In this document: positions 10,384 through 62,716 of the stretch, piece by piece
Layout of the letters: the number at the start of each line of letters is the position of its first letter
Position numbering within the stretch: the stretch's first letter is position 1
Source of the DNA: Lachnospiraceae bacterium G41
GTDB lineage: Bacteria; Bacillota; Clostridia; Lachnospirales; Lachnospiraceae
DNA length: 64,000 nucleotides
Assembly: GCA_900100245.1 (NCBI GenBank)
Contig: FNEU01000009.1
Coordinates: 1 to 64,000 of the forward strand
Direction: 5' to 3'
Notes under the pieces: generated by a model
Seen by the model: the letters and a program-made list of their open reading frames with translations, nothing else
Told to the model about the DNA's origin: nothing
The model's database searches: none
Made by a program: the position numbers and the translations under genes

Positions 10384-10433
10384 AATTACGGGTGTAAAGA
10401 GCAAAAGCTTCAAAAAACCCGTAATTCTTTTTA
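10384..10433 (+). terminator. Terminator formed by the first unit of array 1
   Basis: The perfect 10-bp stem AATTACGGGT/ACCCGTAATT is followed by CTTTTTATT, unlike the later units, which lack a T tract. It lies 10 nt after the stop of the gene at 10011-10373. The stem is rather A+T-rich and the loop is long (23 nt), so efficiency may be modest. Confidence 0.55.
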
Positions 10434-10678
10434 TTAAGCCTCGGAAAATTACGGGTGTAAATGCAAAAACCTCAAAAAAACCGTAAATTTTGACAGGATG
10501 CCTCGGAAAATTACGGGTGTAAATGCAAAAACCTCAAAAAAACCCGTAAATTTTGACAGGATGCCTCGAAAAATTACGAGCTAAATACGAAAAAACGTCA
10601 AATAGCCCGTAAAATCCGGCATCATTCCCCGAAAAATTACGGGCTAAACGCAGAAAACTACAAAAAAGCCCGTAAATT
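10384..10678. repeat. Array of five 63-bp hairpin units (array 1)
   Basis: Five tandem units start at 10384, 10447, 10509, 10572 and 10635, with steps of 63, 62, 63 and 63. Each has a 5' arm AATTACGGGT or AATTACGRGCT, an A-rich loop of about 22 nt, and a 3' arm ACCCGTAATT or AGCCCGTAAAT. Units 2 and 3 are nearly identical over the whole period; units 4 and 5 diverge in loop and linker. The change GGGT/ACCC (units 1 and 3; unit 2 has lost one C) to GGGCT/AGCCC (unit 5) is compensatory, so the pairing itself appears to be maintained. No repeat/spacer split as in CRISPR and no cas genes. Compare the array at 53153-53383. Confidence 0.85.
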
Positions 10679-16121: not shown

Positions 16122-17342
16122 ATGATAAGGATTAGAAAAAAACTTTCGTTAGCAACAAGTATTATATTGATTTTTCTTTTATTATTCTCAACGGCTTGTA
16201 AAGAAAAAACAATATCCTTGGAAGATTATCCCGAGCCCGAGTCAGTTGTAAAAGAAGAGAAAGAGCGACAGGAATATACAAGTGAAGCGGATTTAAGCGG
16301 TGCAATGACCGATGAGGAGTTTGAAGAATTCATCGCCAATCCCGATCCGTTTGAGAAAAACGGTAATTTTATATATAATCCTGCCAATATTCCGGAGAAT
16401 CTTTGCAGGAAATACAGAGATAATCCAAAGGTTATTAAGAATGCCAGACACATTCTGTGTGCTATCTATAATTTCGATTCCGAATTTGAAATTCCGACAG
16501 AAGATGTTTTAAGTGCGGAGGAATTCTTCCTTGCTTACGAGCTTGCATATGAGGCGAGCCCGATGACTTACGGTGCAACTGTTGATTCGGAAGATTACCA
16601 GCATTTCACCGTATCATATTTACCAAGTTTTGCGGTATATCAGGAGGATGACGGGTCTTTTACGGCAGAAACGATAGAGAATGATAATCCGGCTCATGCC
16701 AAGGAAGTATTTGAAGGCTTTATTGAGTATGTTACAAGTACTATAAATAAAAATGTTGATAAAGATGCTCCCCAGATGGAAAAAGCCAAGGCAGTATACA
16801 GAGCTTTAGCCAATGATTTTACAATCGACTGGGATCTTTTCGGCATGACACTAACCGAATCGGATGATTTTACCGACGGCTCGATTGATATAATTTCCAA
16901 AAATACATTGATTGAAGGAGTGTGGGAAAAGAAGCTGGACCAGTACCAACTCGCACAGTTTTATCAGTTTATGATGTATCAGCTTAATATCGAATGCATG
17001 TGCGTCTCGGGTTCAGGAACCTATCATAAAAAGAATATCGAAGAACTTGACAATTATATGGCTGATTTGTGGCAGAATACCTGGAATGTGGTTGTTTCAG
17101 ACGGTAAAGCTTACAATTGCGATTTGTTTATGGAAATCGCGGTTCTTGAAAATCGTAAAATAACCAATCCGGGAAGCGAGGCTGATTTGACATATTTCGG
17201 GATGAGTGATGACACTCACGATAAAACATATACAGTTAACAAGGCAAGCTTAGGCACATATTCAACTTATTACGGATATGGGGCTGTCGACGGAGTGGAA
17301 GAAAACAAAGTTCCCGAATGTGTGGAGGATTATTACTTTTAA
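16122..17342 (+). CDS. Lipoprotein with pseudo-transglutaminase domain, paralog 1 of 4
   Basis: 406 residues. Signal peptide followed by lipobox FSTAC (Cys 26), then the family tag LEDYPEPES. A conserved MTDEEFEEFIANPDPFE segment follows. Residues about 270-335 match a transglutaminase-like core: FYQFMMYQLNIECMCVSGSG, then NTWNVVVSDGKAYNCD, then YFGMSD. In active relatives the helix before LGI carries the catalytic Cys and the HAWN motif the catalytic His. Here the Cys position (14 residues before LNI) is Gln and the His is replaced (NTWN); only the Asp of YNCD remains. It is probably a binding protein rather than an enzyme. RBS AGGAGG. Confidence 0.75.
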   Translation: MIRIRKKLSLATSIILIFLLLFSTACKEKTISLEDYPEPESVVKEEKERQEYTSEADLSGAMTDEEFEEFIANPDPFEKNGNFIYNPANIPENLCRKYRDNPKVIKNARHILCAIYNFDSEFEIPTEDVLSAEEFFLAYELAYEASPMTYGATVDSEDYQHFTVSYLPSFAVYQEDDGSFTAETIENDNPAHAKEVFEGFIEYVTSTINKNVDKDAPQMEKAKAVYRALANDFTIDWDLFGMTLTESDDFTDGSIDIISKNTLIEGVWEKKLDQYQLAQFYQFMMYQLNIECMCVSGSGTYHKKNIEELDNYMADLWQNTWNVVVSDGKAYNCDLFMEIAVLENRKITNPGSEADLTYFGMSDDTHDKTYTVNKASLGTYSTYYGYGAVDGVEENKVPECVEDYYF

Positions 17343-17392
17343 TTAATTGGCATTTATGCGCCAAGAACAGGCAGAAAACAGGGAGGCTCAAT

Positions 17393-18646
17393 ATGAACAC
17401 TGCTAAAAGATTTGTAACCCGGTTAACCGCTTTTATGCTCGCAATTTGCGTAAGTTTTTTATCTTCGTGTGCGCCAAAAAAAGTTGTAGTCGAAGAATAT
17501 CCCGGAATCGAAACGGTTGAAGAAACCGAGACTGAAATTCCTGAAAAAGAGGAGGAGAAGGAAATTCCGGTTGAAGATTTTGATGCTTACCCCGGTGGCA
17601 TGACAGACAAAGAATTTGAAGAATTTATAGCCATTCCGGATCCCTTTGAGGAAACCGGCAAATTCCGATTTTGCCACAAGGCTATTCCGGAATACTTAGC
17701 CAGACAATACAGAGAAAAACCGGAGATAATTTATGTAGCCAAAGAAATGATGGATGCCGTATATAACGGCAAACCGGAATTTGATATTCCGCCGGAATAT
17801 GTATTAACTGATTATGACCCTTTAATAGCTGAAGACCTGGCGAAGAAGTCCTGCCCTTTGGCTGATGCCTGCACTTTTGGTATGGATGAAGATGGGCTTC
17901 ATTATTATATTAGTTATTTTCCGAAGGTACAATTCCAATTGGATGAAGATGGCAATTTGGCTGACGAAATATCTGATTATTCTCTACTTGAACAGGATGA
18001 AGCCATAATAATGGTTGAAGACTTCACGGATTATATTCAGACATTAATAGACAATAATGTTAAGGCTGAAGATTCCGATATGGAAAAAGCGGAGAAAATC
18101 TTTGAAGCACTGACAAAAGAAATATCTTACAGGGAAAGAAAAACCGGAGAAGATCAGATGTTTTTTGAATCCGAGGAAGAGATGGTTGAAGCTTGGAACA
18201 ATCAGACTTATCTGGTCGAGGATATTATAAATGATAAAGCAACGACTCAGCCCAGACTTGCTATGTTGTATCAGTACATCCTGACACAGCTTAATATAGA
18301 GTGCATGACAGTTTCTTCATCGGGATCATATAACAATCAGGGCATTGAAAGACTTGATAATGAAATGGGCACCAGAGGACGAAATATCTGGAATGTGGTT
18401 GTAGCAGACGGCAAAGCGTATAACTGCGATCTGGCATGTGAAATACTTACATATGAATATGATAAAAGTTTTAGTGCTGACTGCGAACCTCAAATGAAGT
18501 ATTTTGGCATGAGTGATTCCACTATGGCAAAGACATTTATTATATCATCCAGATCAAGGTTGTTTTATTATGATGCCGATTTATGGGCAATGGAAAGCGG
18601 CCCGATGAATATGGTTCCGGAATGTGTTGAAGATTATAAACATTAA
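17393..18646 (+). CDS. Lipoprotein with pseudo-transglutaminase domain, paralog 2 of 4
   Basis: 417 residues from ATG 17393 (GGGAGG at 17381-17386). Lipobox LSSC, Cys 25. The family tag appears as VEEYPGIE and the acidic segment as MTDKEFEEFIAIPDPFE. The transglutaminase-like core reads LYQYILTQLNIECMTVSSSG, then NIWNVVVADGKAYNCD, then KYFGMSD. The Cys position is Gln and the usual catalytic His is Asn (RNIWN). It starts 50 nt after paralog 1 and is followed 39 nt later by paralog 3, so the four genes read as one tandem duplication series. Confidence 0.75.
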   Translation: MNTAKRFVTRLTAFMLAICVSFLSSCAPKKVVVEEYPGIETVEETETEIPEKEEEKEIPVEDFDAYPGGMTDKEFEEFIAIPDPFEETGKFRFCHKAIPEYLARQYREKPEIIYVAKEMMDAVYNGKPEFDIPPEYVLTDYDPLIAEDLAKKSCPLADACTFGMDEDGLHYYISYFPKVQFQLDEDGNLADEISDYSLLEQDEAIIMVEDFTDYIQTLIDNNVKAEDSDMEKAEKIFEALTKEISYRERKTGEDQMFFESEEEMVEAWNNQTYLVEDIINDKATTQPRLAMLYQYILTQLNIECMTVSSSGSYNNQGIERLDNEMGTRGRNIWNVVVADGKAYNCDLACEILTYEYDKSFSADCEPQMKYFGMSDSTMAKTFIISSRSRLFYYDADLWAMESGPMNMVPECVEDYKH

Positions 18647-18685
18647 TTGATGGTGAATTATGCGTTATGCGAGGAGGAAACAGAC

Positions 18686-19939
18686 ATGATTGGAAAACGT
18701 AAATTTGCTGCAGGCACTAAAAGAATTTTCACCTTAATCATCTCAGTAATAACGGTTTTTTCACTTTTGCCGCTTACAGGATGTGAAAAAGAAAAAAAGA
18801 TAGAGGATTATCCCGAACCCGAGATAATCGAAACAGAGAACACTAATTCCTCAGAAATTCCCGAAATAATGGAAGTGGCAGATGAATTTCCGGATGAAAT
18901 GACCGAGGAGGAATTTGAAGAATTAATCGCAATTCCCGATCCCTTTGAATCAGATCATTTTGTTTATTGTCCCGATGCCATTCCGGTTTCGTTAGCAAGG
19001 GGTTTCAGAGAAAAACCTAAAATAATCAAAAATGCAAAATATATTCTGATGGCTGTGTATGAGGGAAAAAAGAATGTGGAAATTCCCGAAAAAGATGCTA
19101 TCAGCAACCATGATTTTCAGGCAGCTATAGATTTGGCAAAGCTTTCCAATCCCATAGCAGCAGGTATTGATGGCGGGAATTCGGAAGACGGAACAGCTTT
19201 CTTTATAATGAATTTTCCAAGAATCATTTTACATGGAGACGAAGTGGCCGGAGATGAAGTCGAAGTGGAAGAAGCCGATGCAGATGAAATTAAGTCTAAA
19301 ACCGAAAGCCTTCTTGATTATGTAGTCGATACGATAAATAATAATGTTTCGCCTGAGGATTCGGATATTGAAAAAGCAGAGGCTATATATAAAGCACTGG
19401 CTTCAGATTTCACCCCCGTGATGAGACAACATAATGTAGAAGAATATGTTATTGACGACGATGGTACGGCCTACGTTCAGCCTACTCTTTCACATACTTT
19501 GATTGAAGATTTTCCCGAAGGAGAACTGGATAATCTGGAAATCTCTCAATTATACCAGTTTATATTGACCCAGCTTAATATCGAATGTATGACGGTTGCT
19601 TCATACGGTAATTATACGTCACAAAATGTTGAAGAACTTGACGACTTGATGTCCGACAACTGGTATGAGGTATGGAATGTTGTAGTTTGCGACGGAAAGG
19701 CGTATAATTGTGATTTGTTTTTTGAGATTGCGGTACTGCAAAAACAAAGAATAAAGAATCAGTATGCCGATCCTGATATGACATACTTCGGAATGAGCGA
19801 TGCGTTAAGAAACAAATCATTTGAAGCGAACAAAGATAAACTCGCAGAGTATACATTTAAGGACCCGTACGAAACAGAAGCTTGTCAGGTTAAGGGCAGT
19901 ATAGTCCCGGTATGCGTTGATGATTATTACTTAAGGTAA
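18686..19939 (+). CDS. Lipoprotein with pseudo-transglutaminase domain, paralog 3 of 4
   Basis: 417 residues from ATG 18686 with GAGGAGG 8 nt upstream. Lipobox LTGC with Cys 33, followed by IEDYPEPEI. The acidic segment is MTEEEFEELIAIPDPFE. The core reads LYQFILTQLNIECMTVASYG, then EVWNVVVCDGKAYNCD, then YFGMSD. The catalytic Cys position is Asn and the His position is not His. Identity to paralogs 1 and 2 is highest in this C-terminal core and in the EDYPEPE tag after the lipid anchor. Residues between about 160 and 260 vary most among the paralogs. Confidence 0.75.
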   Translation: MIGKRKFAAGTKRIFTLIISVITVFSLLPLTGCEKEKKIEDYPEPEIIETENTNSSEIPEIMEVADEFPDEMTEEEFEELIAIPDPFESDHFVYCPDAIPVSLARGFREKPKIIKNAKYILMAVYEGKKNVEIPEKDAISNHDFQAAIDLAKLSNPIAAGIDGGNSEDGTAFFIMNFPRIILHGDEVAGDEVEVEEADADEIKSKTESLLDYVVDTINNNVSPEDSDIEKAEAIYKALASDFTPVMRQHNVEEYVIDDDGTAYVQPTLSHTLIEDFPEGELDNLEISQLYQFILTQLNIECMTVASYGNYTSQNVEELDDLMSDNWYEVWNVVVCDGKAYNCDLFFEIAVLQKQRIKNQYADPDMTYFGMSDALRNKSFEANKDKLAEYTFKDPYETEACQVKGSIVPVCVDDYYLR

Positions 19940-19990
19940 TATTTTTCATAAAATAAAAAACAGTGTCTAAAAGACACGCAAAGGAATTAT

Positions 19991-21226
19991 ATGAATAAAA
20001 GAAATGCCGGTTACAAAAAATGTTTAAAAAGACTTTTGTCTTTTATGATGTCTGCTTTATTTGTGTTTTCACTTTTCGCAGGAAGCGGATGTAACAAAGC
20101 CAAAACAATTGAGGATTATCCCGAGCCCGTTACGGTAACTGCATCTGTGGATACCGAAGAAGACGGCGAAAACGAGAATACTGCAGATACAAGCGCAAAG
20201 CCTGCCGAAGATGAAGAGGTACTCGATGAAGTATTATCACCCGAGTATGATTCATTAAGGGAAAAGGGTGAGTTTGAATTCAACCCTACAGCGGTTAATC
20301 CGTTATACAAAATGGAGATGAAGAAGAACCCCAAGATTATCAAGGTAACCAAGGAAATTCTGGCGGCTGTGCATGATGCAAAACCTTCATTTGAATTAAC
20401 CGACGAGCTATCGTGCAGTGAAGCTGAATTTAAAATTGCCTGGGCGCTTGCGGAGATTTCAAGTCCCGTTGTGTACGATGTGTATTATGATACCGAAGAT
20501 TCGGAAACGTATACCATAACTTATTTCCCTACATTCGAATACAACGAATTTAACGAAAGAAATGTTACTGGCGGAATAAGTGAAGAAGAAGCAAAGGAAA
20601 AAATAGACGCATTCAAAGAAGTCTGCGAGAAAATGATTAACGAGACCCTAACCGATAAAGACGATGACATGCAGCGTGCGGCTAAAATATATAAAAAACT
20701 TATTGAAACATATGAGTTTAGATACCCGGATTTTGAAAGCAGAAATATAGAAGATTCGGAAGAGGGAATTGTGACCGATTCCTTTGAGACGAACACTTTC
20801 CTCGTAGATCAGGTTTTAGAGGGAAAACTTGGCGCATGGCAGTTTTTGGATTTATATGAAGGCCTTTTGGTTCAGCTTAATGTGGAATCCATGATGGTAG
20901 GTGCCTTAGGACAGTACCATAAACAGGATTATTCATTGCTTGACGCTACCATGACCTATGATTCAAGTGACAGCAGCTTTGTATGGACTATAGTTTATTA
21001 CGACGACAAAGCTTACCACTGCGATATTCTAATGGATAAAATGGCACTTGACAGCCAGAGAGAATCCTTTGAAGAATACGAGTCCGATATGCTTTATTTC
21101 GGAATGAGTGATGAGAGAAGACAAAAGTCATTCACCATTTATTTCACCAGAGGATTTGAAACCGTCAACCCCGTCAATTCAACGAGCGTTCCGGTATGTG
21201 AAGAGGATTATAAGCTGGAATTGTAA
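19991..21226 (+). CDS. Lipoprotein with pseudo-transglutaminase domain, paralog 4 of 4
   Basis: 411 residues. The longer signal (MNKRNAGYKKCLKRLLSFMM...) ends in lipobox GSGC, Cys 35, then IEDYPEPVT. This is the most divergent member: the MTDEEFEEF segment is lost, and the core reads LYEGLLVQLNVESMMVGALG, then FVWTIVYYDDKAYHCD, then YFGMSDERR. Here even WN of HAWN has become WT, and the Cys position is Ala. It is separated from paralog 3 by 51 nt containing a small GTGTCT/AGACAC hairpin without a T tract, and is followed by a strong bidirectional terminator. Confidence 0.7.
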   Translation: MNKRNAGYKKCLKRLLSFMMSALFVFSLFAGSGCNKAKTIEDYPEPVTVTASVDTEEDGENENTADTSAKPAEDEEVLDEVLSPEYDSLREKGEFEFNPTAVNPLYKMEMKKNPKIIKVTKEILAAVHDAKPSFELTDELSCSEAEFKIAWALAEISSPVVYDVYYDTEDSETYTITYFPTFEYNEFNERNVTGGISEEEAKEKIDAFKEVCEKMINETLTDKDDDMQRAAKIYKKLIETYEFRYPDFESRNIEDSEEGIVTDSFETNTFLVDQVLEGKLGAWQFLDLYEGLLVQLNVESMMVGALGQYHKQDYSLLDATMTYDSSDSSFVWTIVYYDDKAYHCDILMDKMALDSQRESFEEYESDMLYFGMSDERRQKSFTIYFTRGFETVNPVNSTSVPVCEEDYKLEL

Positions 21227-21299: not shown

Positions 21300-21328
21300 G
21301 TGCCTGGCTCGCGTAGCGTGCCTGGCTC
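21300..21328 (+). repeat. Dispersed GTGCCTGGCTC repeat, copy 2
   Basis: GTGCCTGGCTC, GCGTAGC, GTGCCTGGCTC: two direct 11-mers around a short GC-rich core. It lies in inverted orientation to 21257-21285, so the two copies together could form a cruciform or long hairpin. Other copies are at 28087, 42672 and 62669. Confidence 0.8.
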
Positions 21329-21339
21329 TGTCAAAATCT

Positions 21340-28086: not shown

Positions 28087-28120
28087 GTGCCTGGCTTGCC
28101 CAAAGGGCGTGCCTGGCTCC
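28087..28120 (+). repeat. Dispersed GTGCCTGGCTC repeat, copy 3
   Basis: GTGCCTGGCTTG, CCCAAAGGGC, GTGCCTGGCTCC, in the larB-larC gap, 24 nt before the larC start. The inner CCC AAA GGG is itself palindromic. Confidence 0.75.
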
Positions 28121-28143
28121 GAGACCAAGAAGGGAAAATTAAC

Positions 28144-29376
28144 ATGAAAACTCTGTATTTGGAATGTTCAATGGGTGCTGCGGGCGATATGCTCTCGGCT
28201 GCTTTATATGAATTGCTTGATGACAAAGAAGGTTTTATCAACAAAATAAATAACGCAGGAATACCGAAAGTGACGGTTAATGCGGAGCCCATGACAAAGT
28301 GCGGTATCCTCGGAACGCATATGAATGTTCTTGTAGACGGTGTGAGCGAGGGAGAAGAGCATCATCACGAGCACGAACATCATCATGATCATGAACATGA
28401 ACATGAGCATGAACACGAGCATGACCATCATCACGAGCACCATCATTCAAGCTTAAAAGACATAGAAAGCATTATTGATGCCTTAAATGTGCCTGAAAAC
28501 GTTAAAACAGACGCAAAAAATGTTTATGCCATGATAGCCGAGGCTGAAAGCAACGCGCACGGAAAACCTGTTTCTGAGATTCATTTTCATGAAGTCGGAA
28601 CCATGGATGCAGTCGCGGATATTACGATGGTATGTATGTTAATGAATGAAATAAAAGCAGAAAAAATTGTTGCATCGGAAATTCATGTAGGAAGCGGCCA
28701 CGTTCACTGCGCACACGGAATTCTTCCCGTACCAGCACCTGCGACTGCATATCTTTTAAGAGGTATTCCTTTTACTTCAGGCCATATTAAGGGCGAACTT
28801 TGTACACCCACAGGAGCTGCGCTCATTAAATACTTTGCATCACAATACGGCGAAATGCCCGTAATGACCGTGGATAAAATCGGTTACGGAATGGGGAAGA
28901 AGGATTTTGAGCAGGCTAACTGTGTCAGAGCATTCCTTGGAAGTACAAATGAAAAGGCTTCTCAGATAACGGAACTTTCCTGCAATATTGATGATATGAC
29001 GGGCGAGAAAATCGGCTTTGCGATGGAAAAACTCTTTGAAGCGGGCGCACTTGAGGTTTATACGGTTCCTGTCGGAATGAAAAAATCACGCCCGGGCATA
29101 CTTCTTTCGGTAATGTGCAACGAAGCTAAAAAAGACGAAATGGTTTCGATTATCTTTAAATATACAACCACTCTCGGAGTGAGAGAAAACGTAAGTAAAA
29201 GATATACTCTTAAAAGAGAAATCATTAAAAAAGAAACACCTTTCGGAGAAATAAGAATTAAGAAATCCGAGGGCTTCGGAATTGTCAGAGAAAAGTACGA
29301 ATACGAGGATCTTGCACGCATAGCAAACGAGAAAAATATTTCAATTGATGATATTATAAAAGAGTTGGATAAATAA
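28144..29376 (+). CDS. larC: Nickel insertion protein for the nickel-pincer nucleotide cofactor
   Basis: 410 residues from ATG 28144, with GAAGGGAAA upstream; the upstream in-frame GTG lies in the repeat and is not credible. LarC uses CTP to insert nickel into the pincer nucleotide. Motifs: MKTLYLECSMGAAGDMLSAA at the N-terminus, a His-rich nickel-storage-like stretch of about 30 residues (about 75-107), FHEVGTMDAVADI, and HGILPVPAPATAYLL. In lactobacilli larC is split and needs a programmed frameshift; here it is one continuous frame. No larA (lactate racemase) or other LarA homolog lies in the window. Confidence 0.92.
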   Translation: MKTLYLECSMGAAGDMLSAALYELLDDKEGFINKINNAGIPKVTVNAEPMTKCGILGTHMNVLVDGVSEGEEHHHEHEHHHDHEHEHEHEHEHDHHHEHHHSSLKDIESIIDALNVPENVKTDAKNVYAMIAEAESNAHGKPVSEIHFHEVGTMDAVADITMVCMLMNEIKAEKIVASEIHVGSGHVHCAHGILPVPAPATAYLLRGIPFTSGHIKGELCTPTGAALIKYFASQYGEMPVMTVDKIGYGMGKKDFEQANCVRAFLGSTNEKASQITELSCNIDDMTGEKIGFAMEKLFEAGALEVYTVPVGMKKSRPGILLSVMCNEAKKDEMVSIIFKYTTTLGVRENVSKRYTLKREIIKKETPFGEIRIKKSEGFGIVREKYEYEDLARIANEKNISIDDIIKELDK

Positions 29377-52799: not shown

Positions 52800-53123
52800 A
52801 TGAAAATGAATTTTTTTACGGCCTTGAGCAGGCGAAAAAATGATTGTACAAATTTTCCTTTTTCGGATAAACCCAATACAGCTTGTTTTACCTGCAGTCA
52901 CGTGTTAGAGGAGCATAAACCTATCTTATATGTATCTCATGATGAAGACGGATACTGGTCGTTTCTCTGCGGAGGAAGTCATACAGAAAAAGAAATGAGG
53001 CTGGTTGCGCTTTCTGAAATTTTGGATATTGACGGTTCCATGGCTGATTTGGCAGGCCTTGATTACGGTCAATATGCAGAAGCTGAGGATGAGAAAGGCA
53101 ACTGGGTTGTAGGGAGAGAGTGA
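52800..53123 (+). CDS. Hypothetical protein with CxxC motif (DUF2185/immunity-like)
   Basis: 107 residues; the alternative ATG at 52806 is equally possible. TACFTCSHVLEEHKPILYVS, then HDEDGYWSFLCGGSH, has a CxxC and a W-x-F-x-C block seen in small proteins of the DUF2185 kind. DYGQYAEAEDEKGNWVV matches the usual 'L-G..A.R' end only loosely. It is 3 nt after the previous gene and ends 29 nt before the first hairpin of the second 63-bp array, which is its terminator. Confidence 0.5.
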   Translation: MKMNFFTALSRRKNDCTNFPFSDKPNTACFTCSHVLEEHKPILYVSHDEDGYWSFLCGGSHTEKEMRLVALSEILDIDGSMADLAGLDYGQYAEAEDEKGNWVVGRE

Positions 53124-53152: not shown

Positions 53153-53201
53153 AACTACGCGCGGATTAATATAATGTTGAAGAAGGCGCGTAGTTTTTTT
53201 T
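53153..53201 (+). terminator. Terminator formed by the first unit of array 2
   Basis: AACTACGCGC and GCGCGTAGTT form a perfect 10-bp stem running directly into a tract of eight T. The next three units lack a T tract. Confidence 0.8.
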
Positions 53202-53383
53202 ATGAGGTTAGGCGGGACTACGCGCATTTAGGACATTTGTTGAAATAGGCGCGTAGTATTCCCGGAACAGGCGGTCAGGATTACGCGCACTTAGGGCATT
53301 TAATGAAATAGGCGCGTAGTATTCCCAAAACGGCCGGCCAAAACTACGCGCGTTTCCGACATTTAAGCCTTTGCGCGCGTAAT
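53153..53383. repeat. Array of four 63-bp hairpin units (array 2)
   Basis: Inverted-repeat units begin (aligned on ACTACGCGC) at 53154, 53217, 53280 and 53343, exact steps of 63. The 5' arms are ACTACGCGC or ATTACGCGC; the 3' arms are GCGCGTAGT or CGCGCGTAAT. Loops are about 22-23 nt (e.g. ATTTAGGACATTTGTTGAAA). The architecture, 9-10 bp stem, 22-nt loop, second arm, about 20-nt linker, equals that of array 1 at 10384-10678 with a different but related stem (TACGCGC in place of TACGGGT). Confidence 0.85.
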
Positions 53384-53497
53384 ACACGCATATTCATCAC
53401 TTTAAATTGGTAAAATATCATAAAAGAATTAGCATGCAATTAGTAATATTTCACAATAAAAAGGACAAAAGGTGGAAAAGTATGTGTATTCTGCAGA

Positions 53498-53526
53498 TTG
53501 TCCGGGGAAAAAGACCATGCTATAAT
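53498..53526 (+). promoter_or_regulatory. Promoter of the 61-codon orphan gene
   Basis: TTGTCC at 53498-53503 and TATAAT at 53521-53526 are exactly 17 nt apart, leaving a leader of about 70 nt in which I see no further structure. The stretch 53384-53497 holds nothing I can name. Confidence 0.65.
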
Positions 53527-53602
53527 CAGTAAAACTTCAAGAGGGGTCACAATCACGAAGGTACAGACTTAAGGGGCAGACATAAAGAAAGGAAGTGATT
53601 GT

Positions 53603-53788
53603 ATGAACTACATTATTGAAATCGAAAAAGGTCTTTGGTTTCTCGGATGGTCACCACTTGACGGAACTATGCAGACAACCGAAAAAATCGGACTGGCCTA
53701 TCGCATGAGAAGAACAGTAGCGGTAAGAACTCTTCCTAAGGTTGTCGAACATTACGGCAGCGGTCACATAATGGCATCAGCGATTTAA
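53603..53788 (+). CDS. Small orphan protein with its own transcription unit
   Basis: 61 residues, strong AAAGGAAGTGA ribosome site. IEKGLWFLGWSPLDGTMQTT is followed by KIGLAYRMRRTVAVRTL and a short C-terminus ending HIMASAI. It is basic in the second half, with no membrane span, signal peptide or Cys. Promoter (53498-53526) and terminator (53811-53848) frame it as a single gene, which argues that it is real. No family recognised. Confidence 0.6.
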   Translation: MNYIIEIEKGLWFLGWSPLDGTMQTTEKIGLAYRMRRTVAVRTLPKVVEHYGSGHIMASAI

Positions 53789-53810
53789 CCAAATATAATT
53801 AACAAAGATG

Positions 53811-62668: not shown

Positions 62669-62698
62669 GTGCCTGGCTCACGCAGTGTGCCTGGCTCC
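62669..62698 (+). repeat. Dispersed GTGCCTGGCTC repeat, copy 5
   Basis: GTGCCTGGCTC, ACGCAGT, GTGCCTGGCTCC. It lies 16 nt after the symporter stop and 18 nt before the alpha-galactosidase start, the same placement as copies 3 and 4. Confidence 0.8.
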
Positions 62699-62716
62699 GA
62701 CAAAAAGGTAGAAATT

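Follow-up and report, generated by a model that had tools for sequence, protein, structure and literature searches.

Positions 53153-53383 of the window raise the question of what a row of short inverted repeats at exact 63 nt steps represents; the window is the whole stretch of DNA that was analyzed, 64,000 nt corresponding to positions 1-64000 of contig C20 of the genome G000 (2.59 Mb in 22 contigs). The preliminary description took these repeats for one of two arrays of a genome-wide element class, sharing a 63 bp design in which the first unit is a terminator. The repeat is real, as array 2 (approximately 53153-53384) comprises four TACG-N29-CGTA units beginning at 53156, 53219, 53282, and 53345, with a loop of n=29 in each and steps of 63/63/63; the design is common to array 1 (10387-10674), whose five units follow one another at 63/62/63/63. 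An Rfam scan of the window returned no family above the gathering score. The features considered are as follows.

10387 to 10423, unstranded: array 1 unit 1, arm class TACGGGTG/TACGGGCT, with a T-rich tail
10450 to 10485, unstranded: array 1 unit 2
10512 to 10548, unstranded: array 1 unit 3
10575 to 10611, unstranded: array 1 unit 4
10638 to 10674, unstranded: array 1 unit 5
52800 to 53123, plus strand: small gene 5' of array 2; absent together with the array in congener G200, present without the array in G210 and G215
53156 to 53192, unstranded: array 2 unit 1, inverted half-sites ACTACGCGC / GCGCGTAGT, loop n=29, then T8 on the plus strand
53219 to 53255, unstranded: array 2 unit 2, step 63
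53282 to 53318, unstranded: array 2 unit 3, step 63
53345 to 53381, unstranded: array 2 unit 4; homology to congeners picks up again 5-19 nt beyond

Distribution of the Arrays

The two window arrays belong to a class that comprises about 20 arrays and about 85 units in their own genome. The pattern TACG-N28/29-CGTA-N25/26-TACG has 63 forward and 62 reverse matches in the 2.59 Mb, compared to none for the reversed-pattern control, and the array architecture is far beyond chance. Covariance model and pattern searches place arrays on contigs C4, C8, C10, C11, C17 (four), C19, C20 (the two of the window), C21 (several), and C22; those on C8 and C11 may be one locus, as they are nearly identical and the C11 copy lies at the very end of its contig. 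Two arm classes are present, TACGGGTG/TACGGGCT (array 1) and TACG(C/T)GC (array 2). Second-class arrays (L055, L062, L063) show a recurrent AAGCAAGAGAAG-like motif at the unit centre, and other array families have similar purine-rich unit centres; the central motif may be a second contact or cut site. As a separate observation, the assembly is broken at the ends of contigs C3, C4, C8, C10, C13, C16, C17, and C21 by fragments of a multicopy IS200-like Y1_Tnp transposase; no link between these fragments and the arrays was found.

The reading as a class had been offered on the understanding that it would fall if the genome and its relatives held no other arrays; beyond the approximately 20 arrays of this genome, a fixed-spacing pattern searched over 84,980 named genomes recovered at least 108 stretches; the number expected by chance, estimated here from 16 fixed and 4 half-specified bases, is roughly ten or lower. 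Among the matches listed, most are from rumen or gut Lachnospiraceae (Butyrivibrio, Pseudobutyrivibrio), with Treponema, Coriobacteriia, Tissierellia, Ligilactobacillus ruminis, and Spartobacteria as other labels; a few of these other stretches may be due to chance or bin contamination. The same scan of viral contigs gave two stretches. Among 200 genomes of the family the same architecture is found with other tails, namely TACGGAAC (G153), TACGTCCA (G071), and both TACGACA and TACGCGC (G073); the class recurs across Lachnospiraceae and in some other gut bacteria. A 61 bp tandem repeat in G104 was discarded as a false positive, lacking both palindromic arms and the nuclease described below.

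Unit Design

One explanation of the arrays is that they act as RNA, being tandem 3'-UTR hairpins or terminators which stop transcription or stabilize mRNA and are homogenized by unequal recombination. The first units of both window arrays resemble intrinsic terminators, as they carry T tracts and fold well; the hairpin predicted for unit 1 of array 2 is strong and terminator-like (-23 kcal/mol, z -6.9), and the stems covary. A terminator in the first unit is not the rule that had been proposed, however: at least seven T in the 10 nt after the stem occur in 2 of 13 first units, both of them in the window, and in 0 of 57 later units, and a terminator-array model was rejected on this count. Placement after the stop codon of a small gene likewise does not generalize, since divergent flanks account for 9 of 67 arrays vs. 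72 of 504 of all neighbouring gene pairs, leaving no significant 3'-end bias.

The half-sites themselves also speak against an RNA element. When 54 units are aligned, half-sites of the form YTACGNGY alternate in orientation; their core and sixth position hardly vary, in contrast to position 5, and the pyrimidine preceding TACG is kept in both arms without pairing. Stem mismatches on the presumed sense strand comprise 13 G.U and 14 A.C, so that a G.U bias is absent. This pattern looks like protein recognition and not RNA pairing, and a pair of inverted protein half-sites is the better interpretation of the stem.

The ends of the half-sites within a unit lie 36-39 bp apart, a spacing that would suit binding by a protein dimer. 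In TACG arrays, 356 of about 420 pairs have a loop of n=29 (3 in the control). Across 36 nuclease-adjacent arrays the unit steps are quantized at 51-54, 61-64, 73-75, 84-85, and 95-96 nt and their multiples, with none between, giving a periodicity of 10.5 bp (R=0.85, p about 1e-20); TACG-array linkers of less frequent lengths stay in phase as well (R=0.83). The 63 nt step is six helical turns; what stands of the 63 bp claim is the shared design, while the conserved quantity is a whole number of turns (5, 6, 7 or 8) and not 63 as such. Such quantization, together with fixed linkers, is unexpected for RNA hairpins, and in combination with the missing G.U bias it argues for recognition at the DNA level; the RNA explanation is already disfavoured and considered very unlikely.

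The Array-Associated Nuclease

Clustering of the ORFs around 110 array stretches, among the matches listed, gives one dominant family with 17 ORFs in 16 stretches from more than 10 genomes. It is represented by an uncharacterized protein of 265 aa, with an N-terminal coiled coil carrying a β tip (residues 37-60) and a C-terminal PD-(D/E)XK nuclease domain. Whole-protein scans against Pfam and NCBIfam matched no family model, and a sequence search of the PDB found no relative. The C-terminal half matches PDC-S68 and PD-(D/E)XK models among the PADLOC profiles at 1e-24 to 1e-30, the match to PDC-S68 being to its nuclease end. The AlphaFold2 model (pLDDT 88) features an antiparallel coiled coil and a three-stranded tip followed by a PD-(D/E)XK-like domain; structural matches to the predicted nuclease domain are Bax1, DrdV, and the R2 endonuclease (Foldseek E 1e-3 to 0.1; Z 8.3 for Bax1). 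The acidic residues E162, D193, and E208 are invariant in 16 proteins. By fold and acidic residues the protein is a member of the PD-(D/E)XK superfamily, and it is predicted to be an active nuclease. The N-terminal domain modeled alone gives the same model as within the whole protein, and its structure search returned generic coiled coils only.

By profile search, 63 of the 200 Lachnospiraceae genomes contain a member of the protein family or a match to its nuclease domain, with up to eight matches per genome; outside Lachnospiraceae it is rare in a sample of the phylum. The paralogues of the own genome are array neighbours, at C21:48462-49259 and C21:51927-52724; they are 69% identical, about 3 kb apart (L062:3967-8900), and each is adjacent to arrays of the arm class that matches it. 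In the array 3' of the second paralogue, the assembly sequence includes Ns.

The relationship to PDC-S68 and to HEAT_CxxC_PDDEXK proteins, both candidate defence proteins of PADLOC-DB, suggests that the nuclease could be a defence enzyme which the arrays store, or for which they mark self, its release or recruitment leading to attack on foreign DNA. The homologous C-terminal nuclease domain agrees with this, as does the fact that no methyltransferase or other partner gene recurs. The nuclease domain is nevertheless all that is common to PDC-S68; the protein is 265 aa in length in contrast to about 1200 aa for PDC-S68, and unlike it or the HEAT proteins has a coiled-coil N-terminal domain and cognate arrays. 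Defence-island neighbours also do not recur around the arrays, and a role in defence is regarded as highly improbable, more so than the RNA explanation. No mention of PDC-S68 was found in the open literature. A restriction-modification system was rejected, as array neighbourhoods show no recurrent methyltransferase-like partner gene beside the nuclease.

Association of Arrays with the Nuclease Gene

In a set of 62 non-redundant nuclease genes preceded by 150 bp or more of sequence, scored for de novo repeated inverted 5-mers against dinucleotide shuffles, an array lies directly upstream of 45 of 62 genes, compared to 8 of 63 downstream. Nuclease genes known from the protein search alone have an upstream array in 32 of 45 cases; the array is undetectable for a quarter of nuclease genes, some of which are near contig ends. 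The nuclease is more frequent in genomes that have TACG arrays on both strands (10 of 13 vs. 53 of 187, p=7e-4).

TACG is not universal in nuclease-adjacent arms, which include TACAGTT, TACTGC, TTACTAC, TGATGC, CGATGCC, GTACCC, GTGACCGC, TGCGGATAAG, TTAGTCGG, and more; arms divide by nuclease lineage (TACGGGTG, TACGCGC, TACGGAAC, GTACCC, and TGATGC). Same-genus orthologues of paralogue 1 (76-85% identical) have arms TACGGGTG or TACGGGCT, and an orthologue of paralogue 2 (78% identical) has TACGCGCG; same-genus nucleases at 33% identity have TGATGC, ACAGC, CGGAG or TAGGT. The arms follow the protein, being common to orthologues and different between paralogues. Arm similarity correlates with identity of the N-terminal domain (Mantel r=0.28, p=3e-4) and less with that of the C-terminal domain (0.11, p=0.02); at lower protein identity the correlation is weak and in part reflects common descent. 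The N-terminal part of the protein would bind the arms.

Dispersed arrays carry the arm of a nuclease resident in the same genome. The two paralogues of the own genome correspond to its two arm classes, with one class per window array: array 1 matches the 48462 paralogue, and array 2 the 51927 paralogue. The proposal that stems are homogenized locally holds; the apparent concerted evolution resolves, between arrays, mainly into these two classes matching two paralogous nucleases. Elsewhere, dispersed GTACCC arrays occur at two further loci in G101 and in none of three other genomes; those with TGATGC are found in G120, G209, and G218, while five congeners have none. In G222, which matches the window locus at 96% identity, the array is present and no nuclease was detected.

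Turnover of the Arrays

Arrays on C4, C10, C21:51k (nuclease 2), and C21:108k share 67-82% identity across 100-350 bp, which indicates that whole stretches were copied with their loops. At the array 2 locus, neither the small gene nor the array is found in G200, the gene is present and the array missing in G210 and G215, G205 has a different array 3' of the gene, and G222 has altered units. These differences show turnover; the congener comparison displays presence and absence of the array with no target-site duplication or clean single insertion, and loss would also explain the pattern. The spot 3' of the small gene (window 53384-53790; L326-L329) differs from one congener to the next: it contains a sugar-isomerase-like gene, other genes or an array, or is empty. 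In several related genomes array positions are stable.

Ends of multicopy insertion elements are found within 10-40 bp of arrays in two genomes, an IS3-like element in G153 (L103, L104, L105) and a further element with the end TGGGGTACAGTTTA in G071 (L111, L115, L116, L117). This proximity suggests that arrays may be insertion hot spots. Such elements were rejected as carriers of the arrays; since the flanks differ, they are read as insertions nearby.

The stable positions, the location directly upstream of the nuclease gene, and the paired sites in helical phase would all suit arrays that are operators only, i.e. the regulon of a nuclease-like protein serving as a transcription factor or nucleoid organizer with neither mobility nor cleavage. 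Dispersed arrays, however, show no promoter-side bias, the acidic active-site residues are invariant, array presence and unit content vary among congeners, and arms diversify between paralogues; a purely regulatory role is therefore considered unlikely.

Proposed Mechanism

Each array is probably a row of sites that dimers of a cognate, self-encoded nuclease bind, and would have spread through the genome by copying, in a manner analogous to REPIN/RAYT with a different enzyme. A nuclease dimer would bind the two inverted arms of one unit, and units spaced at whole helical turns would allow bound dimers to stack on one face of the DNA. The array directly upstream of the nuclease gene would be the founder and may autoregulate that gene; copies of the array without the gene would spread to other intergenic sites, as REPINs do with RAYT, and the nuclease may both cleave DNA and carry out this copying. 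It is proposed more tentatively, as an idea somewhat more apt to fail than to hold, that a solitary PD-(D/E)XK nuclease amplifies and spreads phased arrays of its own dimer sites, with specificity and arms co-diversifying into lineage dialects.

The match in site sequence between dispersed arrays and those at nuclease genes points to a putative undescribed repeat-plus-nuclease system common in rumen bacteria; the open literature, excluding subscription papers and preprints, yielded no description of it, and one may exist elsewhere. The system would tie a frequent, unexplained class of rumen and gut repeats to one gene family that has no Pfam or NCBIfam model. Dozens of naturally diversified pairs of protein and DNA site, with the sites beside the gene, would provide a data set for a DNA-recognition code; it would also be a second, enzymatically unrelated case beside REPIN/RAYT of bacterial genomes maintaining repeat populations.

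Comparison with Known Repeat Systems

The closest parallel is REP/BIME/REPIN with RAYT (TnpA-REP), which features short inverted intergenic repeats of lineage-specific sequence and dispersed copies with one or a few cognate nuclease-type genes flanked by the same repeat (PMC3733652, PMC3116915, PMC8266576). Here too, the dispersed extragenic inverted repeats are related in sequence to those at the enzyme gene. The enzyme is of PD-(D/E)XK type, in contrast to the Y1 HUH transposase of RAYT, and the founder array is upstream of its gene, unlike in REPIN/RAYT; the general GTAG/CGTC tag of REPINs is absent, CGTA being followed by A or G and non-TACG arms having neither tag. Unlike those of REPINs, the arms are also half-sites in tandem arrays, set apart by whole numbers of helical turns. 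RAYT/IS200 was rejected as the cognate enzyme, as Y1_Tnp is absent from array-bearing G071 and G070 and present in genomes without arrays. Resemblance to CRISPR arrays is limited to a tandem order with a period of about 63 and to repeats that are palindromic in part; just the 7-10 nt arms are kept, and the loops and linkers covary and reappear inside an array, corresponding neither to a repeat of constant sequence nor to spacers that are each unique. Near the arrays there is also no recurrent cas gene. The likeness to intrinsic terminators is confined to the first units of the two window arrays, as other units and other arrays have no T tract.

Additional Repeats of the Window

Three further repetitive features of the window were observed. 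One, at 21301-21338, 28092-28129, and 62670-62707, is another dispersed repeat, which has the motif GTGCCTGGCTC and no relation to the arrays. Several tandem paralogous segments, 62-77% identical and spaced about 1.3 kb apart, occupy 16200-20130. A tandem repeat at 28357-28446 would encode a His/Glu-rich tract (GAGCATGAACAT), which is possibly metal-binding.
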